Of a stretch of DNA of 54,395 nt, positions 42,854-46,965 are shown piece after piece (the first letter of the stretch is position 1; each line of letters starts with the position of its first letter). This stretch comes from Oscillospiraceae bacterium (GTDB taxonomy: Bacteria; Bacillota; Clostridia; Oscillospirales; Oscillospiraceae): assembly GCA_902790375.1 (NCBI GenBank), contig CADARY010000011.1, positions 1 through 54,395 on the forward strand, read 5' to 3'. Position numbers and translations under genes: made by a program. The notes beneath the pieces were generated by a model. The model saw only the letters and a program-made list of their open reading frames with translations, did no database searches and was not told where the DNA came from.

Positions 42854-43101
42854 TGTTTTCAAACCTCTTGCTCTTGAAATCTGTTGAAGCTGTCCCGCTT
42901 GTGTTTACGGCGTTACTATATGCGAAATTTATGACCTTGTCATGAACAAAGCGACAAGATTTTATAAACGATCCTTTCTTCGCCGCAAGCCCCGGCGGAT
43001 AGGGCAGCAAAGCCGTGCGTTTTCACTGTTCCCCTTGCTATCTATCAGTATATTGAAAAATATGGGTATCGGCTCATATCAGCTAACAATCACCGTGTAC
43101 A

Positions 43102-43217
43102 CCGTAGGGGCCGTTCACGAACGGCCCGGCAGTATAAAGTTGGTTTTTCGGATTCGCCCGGGCGCATTCGTCGGATGCGGCCTTTGCCGCCGGGCGATTC
43201 GTGAATCGCCCCTACGG
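43102..43217. repeat. 116-bp REP-pair/MITE-like element
   Basis: Ends are CCGTAGGGG at 43102 and its complement CCCCTACGG at 43217. Inside are two 20-bp palindromic units: GGGCCGTTCACGAACGGCCC (43108-43127) and GGGCGATTCGTGAATCGCCC (43192-43211). A degenerate third unit (GGGCGCATTCGTCGGATGCG-type, about 43160-43182) lies between. The same palindromes recur at 44476, 44671 and 44833, near and inside the transposase gene. No clear target duplication is visible. It looks like a non-autonomous element moved by the nearby RAYT protein. Confidence 0.75.
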
Positions 43218-43408
43218 TCATACAGGGAACTTTGCTGATACTGCGCAACGGCATGAGCTGTAATGAGTTGATGTATCCCCTTACAACGCACGCCGGGCAA
43301 AAGCAGCTTGCCCTTGTCCAGCGGCTTTGACAGCACAGCAGCACACATGTTACGCAGCGGTGTATCGACATAGAGCCGCAAAGGATTGAGAAAACGATAG
43401 AGGGCCAC
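43218..43408 (-). pseudogene. Possible gene fragment ending in the REP element
   Basis: A minus-strand frame opens with GTG at 43408 and reads MALYRFLNPLRLYVDTPLRN and onward about 63 residues until the REP unit at 43217, after which the reading is only repeat sequence. I do not recognise a family and see no good ribosome site. It may be the start of a gene broken by the REP insertion, or chance. The whole gap between the HtrA gene and 43432 is 578 bp and otherwise holds only the protease promoter region and the repeat. Confidence 0.2.
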
Positions 43409-43431
43409 GCAGATTTGTATAAAAATAGTGA

Positions 43432-44028
43432 TTATGCATCATACATAAGAGGAACACCACATTTCCAACACACGTGCCTCCCCTTCGGTTGTGTTGAACC
43501 GCACTTAGGACAAGTTCCAAAGTCTTCTCTATCGGCAGGTAGCAAATAGACTGCTTTTTCTCCCTTAGGATTTACACCATATTCGCAATCTTTTTTACTC
43601 TCTTCTTTACAGTCAATATCAGTTTCAACTGTGTTTTCCCAGAGTAGTTGCGTTTTTTTCTTCTCAAACTCTTGTTGTGAAATAATGCCCGCATCAAGCA
43701 ACTCTTTATACTCCTTTATATGCTTTATTCTATCCGCTTCACTTATGTTTTTTTCCACATTATTAGCTTTTTCTTGTTCCTGTCTGCTTTTCAAAATGGC
43801 CTCAGATTTCAAGGGAGTAGCATAAGGCGGCTGTTCATCATACGAGTTGCTATTTGAAGCTTGAGGAGAATAATTATCGTTTGGCCTGACAGCTACAATA
43901 ATAATTCCAATAATCCCCAACCAAAAGCCCCACCAAAAACCTCCATTCATATTTCTGCTTGATGCAATAGCCATACAAACAAAGCCACATACAACGCCTA
44001 CAATTAAGTAGACAAGTAAATACTCCAT
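43432..44028 (-). CDS. Small membrane protein with a SHOCT domain and a C-terminal zinc ribbon
   Basis: A 198-aa protein: two membrane helices at the N-terminus (YLLVYLIVGVVCGFVCMAIA and GFWWGFWLGIIGIIIVAV), a polar linker, a SHOCT domain (KEYKELLDAGIISQQEFEKKKTQLL, about residues 105-130) and a C-terminal zinc ribbon (CPKCGSTQPKGRHVCWKCG). The role of SHOCT domains is not known; they often sit on membrane proteins in many copies per genome. ATG at 44028 follows GAAGGGAG. Its GC is clearly lower than that of the flanking core genes, suggesting recent acquisition along with the repeat-rich DNA beside it. Confidence 0.82.
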   Translation of the reverse strand: MEYLLVYLIVGVVCGFVCMAIASSRNMNGGFWWGFWLGIIGIIIVAVRPNDNYSPQASNSNSYDEQPPYATPLKSEAILKSRQEQEKANNVEKNISEADRIKHIKEYKELLDAGIISQQEFEKKKTQLLWENTVETDIDCKEESKKDCEYGVNPKGEKAVYLLPADREDFGTCPKCGSTQPKGRHVCWKCGVPLMYDA

Positions 44029-44475
44029 TTCTTTTCTCCCTTCATTTTGATTATAATAAAAAGTGCGCAGCCCAAATGAGGCTACGCACGAAAAACGCAG
44101 AGCCTCATTTGCCGCGACGCAAATCTCCATTGCCTAAAAAGGGTGGGGAATTGAGGATGCGTTTTTACCAAAAATGGTAAAAACCCACCCTATTAGGCAA
44201 TAAGCAGTATTCGATTTGCGTCGCACATCTATAATAAGGCATATTCGCCAAAAAAGCAATGCTCAATTTGCCGCATTTCATAACTTTTTCAGCAGCAACG
44301 GCGACGGTAGAGCAAAGCACCACATCCCCAGCGCGGCAGGTCTGCTTCACCACCTACTTTTTGAAACTACACTTTCAATTTGCTTCGCACAGTAAATCCC
44401 CTGAAGGTTTTCCTTTTCCATCAAGAAAACTATGGAAAACCCCTGGGGGATTTGCTATTATCGTCTTGTGGACGC
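44029..44475. other. AT-richer, highly structured non-coding region
   Basis: No gene seen. Several nested inverted repeats are visible: AAATGAGGCT/AGCCTCATTT (44076-44110); an outer pair GCGACGCAAATC / GATTTGCGTCGC (~44113-44224) enclosing TTGCCTAA...AGGGTGGG / CCCACCCTATTAGGCAA and an innermost GTTTTTACCA/TGGTAAAAAC hairpin (44161-44184); and AAATCCCC...GGTTTTCC / GGAAAACC...GGGGATTT (44394-44453). The motif ATTTGCNNCGCA recurs about four times. It could be a folded RNA, a stack of short mobile elements, or transposon-end debris. Confidence 0.6.
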
Positions 44476-44501
44476 GGGCGATTCGTGAATCGCCCCTACG
44501 G
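44476..44501. repeat. REP palindrome upstream of the RAYT gene
   Basis: GGGCGATTCGTGAATCGCCC (44476-44495) followed by CTACGG, identical to the right end of the 116-bp element. No left-end partner (CCGTAGGGG) is present in the preceding 450 bp. Confidence 0.85.
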
Positions 44502-44664
44502 AATAACGGGTGAACCGGGAATTGCGCCGGGCCGGTATGAGGGATGAGGAGTATGCTGCCAAGTAGAAAGCAAATCCGCCTATCATGTCACGATTACAGC
44601 AGCCCCGGCGCTTATTTCGTCACGATCTGTACGCATGAAAAGCGCTGCATCCTCTCAGATATCA

Positions 44665-44690
44665 CCGTAGGGGCGATTCACGAATCGCCC
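44665..44690. repeat. REP unit inside the transposase gene, left orientation
   Basis: CCGTAG followed by GGGCGATTCACGAATCGCCC (44671-44690). Read in frame as VGAIHESP. Confidence 0.85.
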
Positions 44691-44832
44691 GCAGAGGTTC
44701 GTCTGACCGAGGCCGGTCGTTGTGTGCAAAATGTATTGGAAATACTTCCCATGCGCTACCCCAATCTGGCTGTAGACAAGTATGTAATCATGCCCAATCA
44801 CGTTCATCTTCTGCTGCAAATTACAAAGGAAC

Positions 44833-44857
44833 GGGCGATTCGTGAATCGCCCCTACA
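44833..44857. repeat. REP unit inside the transposase gene, right orientation
   Basis: GGGCGATTCGTGAATCGCCC (44833-44852) followed by CTACA. It is the inverted partner of the unit at 44665 and is read in the same codon phase (AIRESPL). Confidence 0.85.
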
Positions 44858-45096
44858 GTTACAGGAAAACGCGCCGCCCCGGAAGCAGGTGCGATCCTTG
44901 CTTGATATGGCGATCGGGTTTCTAAAGATGAACAGCAGCAAGCAAATACACATACACCGTCCCGATCTGACAGTATGGCAGCGGTCTTATCATGACCATG
45001 TGATCCGAAACGAAAACGATTATCGGAAAATCTGGAATTATATCGACACGAACCCTGCTCGTTGGAGAGATGACTGCTTCTTTATAGGATAATAAA

Positions 45097-45164: not shown

Positions 45165-45269
45165 TTATTGGTGTTTCAGTCCGCAATCACACATACTTTC
45201 ATAGGGTTTGTTGGCTTCTTCCAATCTTACCCAGTCCCGCAAGCCCTTGCGCCGCAAGCGTTTGCTCAC
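45165..45269 (-). CDS. Possible 34-aa peptide coupled to spo0A
   Basis: A short frame starts with GTG overlapping the spo0A stop (GTGA) and reads [20 protein letters not shown], then [14 protein letters not shown]. It is basic at the start and has a CxC near the end. The overlap would permit translational coupling, but there is no independent support and no family I recognise; it could be chance. Confidence 0.25.
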
Positions 45270-46060
45270 CTTACGGCGTGCTTGCGTTTGAGGGAAAGAT
45301 TGTCAGCAATCATGGCGATAAATTCGCTATTCGTCGGTTTTCCCTTGATGCCGCTCACGGTGTAGCCGAAGAAGCGCTGGAGGGTCTCCACGTCGCCGCG
45401 GTCCCAGGCGACCTCGATGGCGTGGCGGATGGCGCGCTCGACGCGGGAGGGCGTGGTGCCGAAGCGCTTGGCCACCTCGGGGTAGAGCACCTTCGTGACG
45501 GCGTTGATCATGTCCATGTCCTTGATGGTGAGGATGATGGCCTCGCGCAGGTACTGATAGCCCTTGATGTGCGCGGGCACACCGATCTCGTGGATAATGT
45601 CGGTGACGATGGCCTCCAGGTCCGCGTCGGTGCGCGCGGCCTCGGCGCTCCTGCGGAAGTCCACACCCACGCCCGGGGTGCGGGGCAGATCAAAATTGAG
45701 CTGGCGGATGCGGCTGATGAGCGACTCGATATCGCAGGGCTTGGGGATGAAATAGTCCGCCCCGCAGTCGGAGCACTCGGCAATGACCTTGCCGTTGACA
45801 AAGCCCGACAGCACGATCACGTGGCAGGCCGCGCCCTTGTCCGGAAGCCTGCGCAGAACCTCCAGCCCGTCCAGCTTGGGCAGCACCAGCTCCAGCAGGA
45901 TCAGGTCCGGCTTGAGCTCCGCCGCCCGCTCCAGCGCCTCCTGCCCGTCGGACGCCGTCCCTACGACCTCCATGTCTCCTTCGGCCGCGACAAGCTCCGT
46001 AAGCTGCCGACAAAATTCCCGATTCGGGTCGACGGTGAGAATGCGAATCTTCGTTTCCAT
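45266..46060 (-). CDS. spo0A: Spo0A, master sporulation response regulator, with a non-canonical receiver
   Basis: A 264-aa Spo0A orthologue: receiver domain (1-~125), linker, and the highly conserved DNA-binding domain (from [21 protein letters not shown] through [15 protein letters not shown], the recognition helix, to [14 protein letters not shown]). In Spo0A the Asp of the VLDIIMPHLDG segment is phosphorylated. Here the aligned segment is [11 protein letters not shown] with Glu57 (codon GAG) in its place. Of the two acidic pocket residues (ADDNRE in Bacillus) the first is kept (D11) and the second is Pro12. The switch Ser85 and Lys107 remain. Phosphorelay control is therefore doubtful; a phosphomimetic or altered switch is possible. 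ATG at 46060 follows GGGAGG. Spo0A-box-like sites lie upstream. Confidence 0.95.
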
Positions 46061-46176: not shown

Positions 46177-46290
46177 TGTCGAACAATCGGGATTACTTGT
46201 TGACATAATACGCTATTTTTAGTCCTCTTTCAACGGCGTTTTATGGATTTCCTCAGATTTCTTTCCGCCTCTTTGTCGAATGCTGTCGAA
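46177..46290 (-). promoter_or_regulatory. spo0A promoter region with three Spo0A-box-like sites
   Basis: A sigma-A promoter on the minus strand: TTGAAA (46228-46233), a 17-nt spacer, TATTAT (46205-46210). TGTCGAA cores occur at 46177-46183 (transcribed leader), 46274-46280 (part of a perfect TTTGTCGAA at 46272-46280) and 46284-46290, the last two 10 bp apart on the same helix face. This fits autoregulation by Spo0A. The 263-bp gap 46061-46323 holds no gene. Confidence 0.7.
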
Positions 46291-46323: not shown

Positions 46324-46965
46324 TCAGGGCCCGTCATAGAGCAGCTCGAAGCTCTCATAGTGGTCGCCGGTGTAGTAGATCAGCCCGTCGTTGGAAAAGA
46401 TGATCCGCTTCCCGCCGCGGGATCTGGCGCCGAGGGTATCCACGTCGCACTCCGTCCAGCGGCGTCCCTTGGCCTTGGGCAGCTGCCCCTCGTAATTGCC
46501 GAAGTAGTCGCCGCCGATGCACATGCCGGGCAGCACTCTGTCAAGCGGGCCGCCGCTCCAGCCCAGGGCCTCCGCATCCTTCTTCCTGATGAAGTTTTCG
46601 GGCAGATGGCCGTAGGTATGGATATACAGGGCCAGATCCTCCTTGCTGGTATAGATCCCGTACTCATCCAGTTCCTCCCCGGTCGGCTCCGGCGAAGGCG
46701 TCGCCGCGGGGATACGGGTCGACAGCGGCTTCGGCGTCTCAATGCGTTCGGGGGTGGCCGCCGCGGGGGGCGCGGACGAGACAGGCTTCGCCGTCTGCTC
46801 CGGCGCGGAGGAGGCGGGTGTCGGCGCTGCGGTCGGCGAGGGCGAAACGAGCGTGAGCGCCGCGGTGGGCGTCGGCGCGGGGGGCGCGTTATTCGTGCCG
46901 GGCAGGAACAGCCATGCCAGCACCAGGGCCAGCAGGATCACCGGCAATGTTTTTGTCAGCTTCAT
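46324..46965 (-). CDS. Secreted/anchored barnase-type ribonuclease (RNase N1/T1 family)
   Basis: A 213-aa protein: a hydrophobic N-terminal signal or anchor (~4-22), a long Ala/Pro/Thr/Ser-rich spacer (~25-97), then a barnase-like domain (~103-212). TSKEDLALYIHTYGHLPENFI, EALGW, GGDYFGNYEGQLP and the DHYESF end align directly with barnase. The catalytic set is present: K128 (barnase K27), E172 (E73), R183 and R187 (R83/R87), H202 (H102). It should cut RNA outside the cell, probably after guanosine. No barstar-like inhibitor gene is seen anywhere in the window. It has its own promoter and lies upstream of spo0A on the same strand. Confidence 0.9.
   Translation of the reverse strand: MKLTKTLPVILLALVLAWLFLPGTNNAPPAPTPTAALTLVSPSPTAAPTPASSAPEQTAKPVSSAPPAAATPERIETPKPLSTRIPAATPSPEPTGEELDEYGIYTSKEDLALYIHTYGHLPENFIRKKDAEALGWSGGPLDRVLPGMCIGGDYFGNYEGQLPKAKGRRWTECDVDTLGARSRGGKRIIFSNDGLIYYTGDHYESFELLYDGP

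Follow-up and report, generated by a model that had tools for sequence, protein, structure and literature searches.

A Spo0A with glutamate at the phospho-acceptor position in an Oscillospiraceae bacterium and its recurrence in the Oscillospirales

According to passages of a 2024 review (PMC11210211), all endospore formers enter sporulation through Spo0A, a regulator that becomes active when a conserved Asp is phosphorylated, and the phosphorylation site of the Clostridioides difficile protein is given as Asp56 in part of PMC11115286. Receivers in which the acceptor Asp is replaced are known as aspartate-less receivers (ALRs); section 7 of PMC4395418 reports that Glu is the commonest replacement (26%), that most of these receivers retain the first pocket acid and the Lys, and that most have lost the second acid. 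The same section describes receivers, NtrC among them, in which an Asp-to-Glu substitution made in the laboratory can activate without phosphate. In gut phages, an excerpt of PMC10294663 describes Spo0A proteins that have no receiver and whose output is proposed to be freed from receiver control.

The Spo0A analyzed here shares with the Bacillus and Clostridioides proteins the two-domain architecture, a match to TIGR02875 and a near-invariant DNA-binding domain, but carries Glu at the acceptor site where they carry Asp. As in the ALR domains of RitR and ChxR, the acceptor Asp is replaced, acid 1 and the pocket Lys are kept, and acid 2 is lost; ChxR also carries Glu at the acceptor position (PMC4395418, section 7). 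The ALRs in that section are other regulators, whereas this protein is the master regulator of sporulation, and Glu accounts for 34 of the 46 distinct Spo0A proteins without Asp, a share to be set against the 26% of that survey. The substitution is the same as in the laboratory receivers; those were engineered, whereas Glu in Spo0A is natural, repeated and mostly found where the pocket has a single acid (position 12 is non-acidic in 31 of 34 distinct Glu57 proteins). Release of the output from receiver control may be common to the phage proteins and this one, but here the receiver is present and conserved.

The original prediction knew of no Spo0A in which Glu occupies the acceptor position, and none was found described in the accessible portion of the openly licensed literature. 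A term search of the searchable parts of PMC11210211 and of PMC6136694, which deals with the evolution of the sporulation pathway, returned no mention of it, and PMC11536998, in the part available, uses the presence of spo0A as a sporulation marker and does not consider the acceptor residue. The ALR class itself is known; what is new here is a predicted aspartate-less receiver in Spo0A, where it is unexpected, with an apparently repeated origin.

The Spo0A protein of the window

The window is a stretch of 54,395 nucleotides from a draft genome of an Oscillospiraceae bacterium (contig CADARY010000011.1). The spo0A gene and its acceptor-site residues, numbered from Met1, lie as follows.

45266..46060, minus strand: spo0A gene, 264 amino acids, ATG start, stop codon included (open reading frame and translation; TIGR02875, PF00072, PF08769)
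45695..46060, minus strand: receiver domain, residues 1-122 (PF00072, residues 7-119; AlphaFold2 pLDDT blocks of 89-98 over residues 1-120)
45890..45892, minus strand: codon 57, GAG (Glu), the phospho-acceptor position (translation and alignment)
46025..46027, minus strand: codon 12, CCG (Pro), replacing the second acidic pocket residue (translation and alignment)
46028-46030, minus strand: Asp11 codon, retained
45740..45742, minus strand: codon 107, AAG (Lys), the conserved pocket lysine, retained (translation and alignment)
45281..45622, minus strand: Spo0A C-terminal DNA-binding domain, residues 147-260 (PF08769; phmmer matches to 1lq1 and 1fc3)

The original prediction named no strand; its claim of Glu at position 57 was confirmed by the minus-strand translation, and its assignment of the DNA-binding half to Spo0A agrees with the matches to PF08769 (3.5e-46, residues 152-255) and to the TIGR02875 profile spore_0_A (314.8 bits against a cut-off of 200, residues 4-260). 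By its full-length TIGR02875 score and its C-terminal domain, the protein is a Spo0A orthologue. Residue 57 aligns with the Asp that is phosphorylated in other Spo0A proteins, Asp56 in the numbering of Bacillus. The pocket pair is Asp11-Pro12, in which only the second acid is gone, and Ser85, Phe104 and Lys107 are retained. Since it lacks the acceptor Asp, and has only one of the two metal-binding acids, we do not class the protein as a phosphorylation-activated response regulator; the receiver fold, the replaced acceptor, and the retained pocket Lys and coupling residues place it among the ALRs. The receiver most similar to the AlphaFold2 model is that of phospho-Spo0A (1qmp); structures of receivers in the unactivated form come almost as close in score, so that the predicted structure is uninformative on the active versus the inactive state.

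A whole-genome search of the source draft (95 contigs, 88.6% complete) found a single Spo0A copy; a second, canonical one, a possibility raised with the prediction, was not found in this draft. Among 21 other genomes of the order with Glu57, a second match at E <= 1e-35 was seen in two (G373 and G081), and two members of the genus (G031 and G033) each have an additional short C-terminal Spo0A fragment.

We lean slightly towards the explanation that this is a working Spo0A with an aspartate-less receiver, in which Glu57 and Lys107 would take the place of phospho-Asp and activity would be set by amount or by a partner. The observations behind it are the conservation of the residues, the repeated appearance of Glu, Lys107, purifying selection, the spore genes and the upstream boxes.

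Distribution and repeated appearance of Glu57

A long Spo0A match was present in 28 of the 37 genomes of the genus. Residue 57 is Asp in 22 of these and Glu in six, namely the window's own genome (G000), G027, G022, G031, G033 and G036. The assemblies of its three nearest relatives, G027, G022 and G031 (91%, 83% and 81% identical), encode the residue by GAG, GAG and GAA, respectively. The second pocket acid is absent in all 28 genomes read, 22 of them with Asp57; its change in the window protein, pointed out in the original prediction, is therefore real but not specific to this protein. Because the loss is genus-wide and includes the Asp57 members, it is probably older than Glu57.

Scoring of position 57, proposed earlier as a check for the Oscillospiraceae and carried out here across the Oscillospirales, gave 138 Asp, 27 Glu, 7 Asn, 4 Ser and 2 Gly among 178 loci. 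Of the 355 matching genomes, 148 were read, largely in descending order of match quality; 27 further genomes of the genus were added, and three second copies (G034, G288 and G310) are included. As the sample consists mostly of best matches, the frequency of Glu57 may be overstated. The 13 loci with Asn, Ser or Gly are L042, L047, L049, L050, L056, L196, L227, L244, L250, L252, L254, L258 and L261. Glu57 occurred in seven families, six of which also have Asp57. Judged from these alignments, Glu57 is a recurrent trend across the order, a point absent from the earlier prediction. Outside the order, Asp57 was found in 59 of 60 loci of the class (from 60 of the 80 matching genomes, mostly the best), and the only Glu57 locus of this sample (L309) also lacks acid 12. 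Residues other than Asp were commoner within the order than outside it (p = 4.7e-5).

Among 80 named loci, some of which are identical in sequence to loci of the genome sample, Glu57 was found in nine, all without acid 12, including the complete genome AP018533.1 (CCNA10, L068) and Flavonifractor sp. An100 (L077). Every one of the 42 named loci that keep both acids of the pocket, those of Bacillus and Clostridium included, has Asp57.

The history of the residue was followed on a quick single-gene tree (LG+G4) built from 253 distinct Spo0A protein sequences after removal of columns 11, 12 and 57. The rows include named loci from outside the order; L056, which is too short, was left out, and each of four duplicate pairs was reduced to a single row. 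The tree requires 19 changes between Glu and non-Glu and contains 13 independent Glu/Asp pairs across well-supported branches. When it is rooted on Bacillus, the tree gives about 15 Asp-to-Glu, four Asp-to-Asn and about four Glu-to-Asp changes. Glu makes up 15 of the 19 replacements of Asp at position 57, whereas at nine control columns with an Asp majority it makes up 35 of 116 (p = 1.4e-4), which indicates that the acceptor Asp is not simply decaying and that an acid is favored. Lys107 is present in every distinct Glu57 protein (34 of 34) and in 202 of 207 with Asp57; among the order loci, none of the 27 with Glu57 lacks it, compared with four of the 13 in which residue 57 is Asn, Ser or Gly (p = 0.008).

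The association of Glu57 with the loss of acid 12 is clear on the tips (p = 1.8e-4). On the tree, 12 or 13 of the 15 changes fall on lineages without the acid, which occupy 56% or 70% of the branch length (p = 0.05 and 0.13), and the independent pairs gave no signal of a link. When the phylogeny is taken into account the link is weak, which counts against our explanation, and we do not use it as a main argument.

The main rival to our explanation is that the acid at 57 is merely structural. Phosphate dependence would already have gone with the second pocket acid, position 57 would need only to be acidic so as to pair with Lys107, and Asp and Glu would drift at unchanged activity. The absence of the second acid throughout the genus, in Asp57 members too, fits this account, as does a non-acidic residue 12 in 94 of the 138 Asp57 loci of the order; position 12 accepts many residues, while position 57 is mostly Asp or Glu. 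The Glu-to-Asp returns suggest interchange between the two acids and count to that extent against our explanation. However, three of the four returns are single rows, and the fourth lies within a Glu group with a support of 9. The Asp57 majority (138 of 178) speaks for a continuing importance of Asp in most members. Moreover, there are receivers in which Asp accepts phosphate with a single acid in the pocket. We therefore regard a merely structural acid as unlikely, although it comes first among the alternatives.

Phosphate supply, selection and sporulation genes

No match to Spo0E was found in any of 36 genomes of the order, for which a Bacillus control gave four matches and a Clostridium control none. 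We rejected the absence of Spo0E as a sign that control is free of phosphate, since the Asp57 relatives and the Clostridium control are equally without a match and the absence thus provides no argument. A profile search found no Spo0B-type domain in the source genome, and 14 of 61 genomes of the genus had Spo0B-type matches at E <= 0.02. Small Spo0B-like proteins seemed at first to occur in Asp57 sisters, but the four small matches read in relatives look, by eye, like short quorum-type sensor kinases or fragments of them, and the lead was dropped; two adjoin the same type of transporter, and one adjoins a LytTR-type regulator. Passages of the review PMC11210211 describe the phosphorelay as absent in Ruminococcaceae and other clostridial families.

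The source genome encodes 12 HisKA kinases. Their pairing was read with a home-made receiver profile in ten stretches covering the 12 matches, and most of the kinases lie beside or are fused to a receiver. In the 6 kb read for one of them (on C16), no receiver ORF is present, and another (on C54) runs to the contig end. The proposal of a Spo0A independent of the phosphorelay thus stands only in part: the acceptor Asp is gone and neither a second Spo0A nor a Spo0B-type match was found in this genome, but 12 HisKA kinases remain.

Among the receiver helices of the Glu57 clade, conservation is highest in the first, the docking site of kinases (mean identity 0.89, compared with 0.61 in six Asp57 neighbors, which are more diverged overall). 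Because of this conservation, some partner may still bind the receiver. Together, the remaining kinases, one of them without a receiver ORF, and the conserved helix speak against our explanation and for another form of phospho-control, in which the phosphate goes to Glu57 itself or to a neighbor such as Ser85, or binding of an orphan kinase regulates Spo0A. Against this, we know of no example of Glu phosphorylation in bacterial signaling. Section 8 of PMC4395418 likewise describes it as unknown as of 2015. We consider control of this kind improbable.

In the window's Glu57 clade, dN/dS was 0.15-0.24 for the receiver and 0.04-0.15 for the DNA-binding domain. Receiver values were 0.00-0.29 in six Asp57 pairs and 0.04-0.46 in other Glu57 pairs. 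The substitution rates thus point to a receiver under purifying selection with Glu57 or Asp57 alike; given the similar values in Asp57 pairs and the rise to 0.46 in distant Glu57 pairs, selection does not single out Glu57.

Among the sporulation proteins, a SpoIVA match was found in 27 of 27 Glu57 genomes (in G141 by a contig-end fragment only), in 12 of the 13 genomes whose residue 57 is Asn, Ser or Gly, and in 23 of 24 with Asp57. Among 14 control genomes the model matched B. subtilis only, and the match in the source genome (4.5e-189) is above the cut-off. All 27 Glu57 genomes also match the SigG model, none above the curated cut-off and 22 at 376-439 bits; the SigG-like factor of the source genome scores 400 bits, below the cut-off of 457. 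As unrelated sigma factors of 10 of the 14 control genomes are also picked up by this spore-sigma model, only its high scores count. The SpoIIE model matched in 25 of 27 Glu57 genomes, never above the cut-off and in several cases partially. The source genome thus has sporulation genes, but its SpoIIE-like matches are weak (3.0e-9), which counts against our explanation and is possibly due to the incompleteness of the genome. Within the genus, SpoIVA was found in 23 of the 28 genomes with a long Spo0A match, compared with one of nine without, that one partial. The eight genomes having neither (G001, G009, G010, G014, G015, G020, G024 and G028) suggest either that sporulation was lost within the genus or that the assemblies are incomplete.

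These data also bear on decay, the possibility that the receiver has lost its function and that Spo0A, or sporulation as a whole, is disappearing. In its favor, divergence is faster in the receiver than in the DNA-binding half, residue 57 is Asn, Ser or Gly at 13 of the 178 order loci, two of the 13 genomes concerned (G051 and G073) have a stop codon within the Spo0A match, and SpoIIE is weak in the source genome. Decay is nevertheless very improbable, as the receiver is under purifying selection, SpoIVA is kept, the upstream boxes are kept in the genus, and Glu is favored over other replacements; in the genus, moreover, it is loss of the whole Spo0A that accompanies loss of SpoIVA. A sequencing or assembly error at codon 57, for which only the draft state of the source genome would speak, is rejected with near certainty, since Glu57 recurs in five other genomes of the genus with two different Glu codons and in the complete genome AP018533.1.

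Upstream boxes and a possible route to activity

The region upstream of spo0A contains copies of TTCGACA, a motif that we take to be the Spo0A box (0A-box).

46274..46290, minus strand: tandem TTCGACA pair, 0A-box-like, 10 bp apart, upstream of spo0A (exact motif match)
46177..46183, minus strand: third TTCGACA upstream of spo0A (exact motif match)

The tandem pair is the sole occurrence in the window at up to one mismatch (0.02 expected); the 7-mer by itself is no rarity, with 10 copies in the window and 5.4 expected. At least one box motif was present in 28 of 29 spo0A upstream regions of the genus, compared with 1.2 expected, and two or more in all six Glu57 and in 21 of 23 Asp57 regions. 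Boxes per region were 1.0 with Glu57 (n = 6) and 0.66 with Asp57 (n = 35) in the family, and 0.64 with Glu57 (n = 14), 0.70 with Asp57 (n = 79) and 0.64 with Asn, Ser or Gly (n = 11) in the order. With 0.04-0.05 expected, these densities are above chance with either residue and below that of the genus. At the named loci, the values were 0.44 for Glu57 (n = 9, none with two or more) and 0.85 for Asp57 (n = 71, 16 with two or more); the few boxes at these nine Glu57 loci count against our explanation. Taken together, the motifs point to a Spo0A that continues to bind at its own gene and regulate it irrespective of residue 57, and their position upstream of spo0A makes dose control plausible.

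The gene directly upstream of spo0A (46324-46965, minus strand) encodes a barnase-type ribonuclease (PF00545, 3.4e-18) with a signal-like N-terminus by eye. Ribonuclease-like stretches were also seen by eye near spo0A in the sister loci L010 and L058, whereas in Flavonifractor sp. An306 (L065, 4567-5721), an isolate from chicken with Asp57, the gene just upstream encodes a SpoIVB peptidase (TIGR02860). On the other side of spo0A, at 43191-44858, the palindrome GGGCGATTCGTGAATCGCCC occurs in four copies, one of them inverted (0.07 expected at up to three mismatches), and a related palindrome lies at 43100-43128. Two GGGCGATTCGTGAATCGCCC copies fall inside an ORF resembling a REP-associated tyrosine transposase (44544-45092, plus strand; 61.8 bits, cut-off 80). 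Palindromes and ORF together look like a REP/RAYT element.

For a working Spo0A with an aspartate-less receiver, the following course may be envisaged. The second metal-binding acid of the pocket was probably lost first, and Glu would then have replaced the phosphoryl-accepting Asp at position 57. Together with Lys107 and Ser85, Glu57 would hold the receiver in or near the active state, free of phosphate. It counts against this course that Asp-to-Glu alone is often insufficient and that Spo0A is among the cases that needed further mutations (PMC4395418, section 7, citing Green 1991); the altered pocket may therefore supply the second change. Spo0A activity could then be set by the quantity of the protein, through its own box-rich promoter, and also by a protein or ligand docking on the conserved receiver face, in place of phosphate from a histidine kinase. 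Extended to the order, the proposal is more tentative, and we hold it somewhat less likely to be right than wrong: entry into sporulation would have been freed repeatedly from phosphotransfer, with a phosphomimic Glu keeping Spo0A active and abundance or a partner deciding.

If this wider proposal is true, not every endospore former follows the rule that Spo0A acts through phosphorylation. A large group of bacteria that have spore genes and no phosphorylated residue in Spo0A would show that the gate to sporulation can be rewired, which would matter for predicting spore formation in such bacteria, many of them known from metagenomes only. At least one Glu57 strain, the chicken isolate Flavonifractor sp. 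An100, is among the pure-culture isolates named in part of PMC6069880. About 15 natural changes of a phosphorylation site to Glu within one regulator would provide a system for studying how a phospho-switch evolves into a phosphate-free one.
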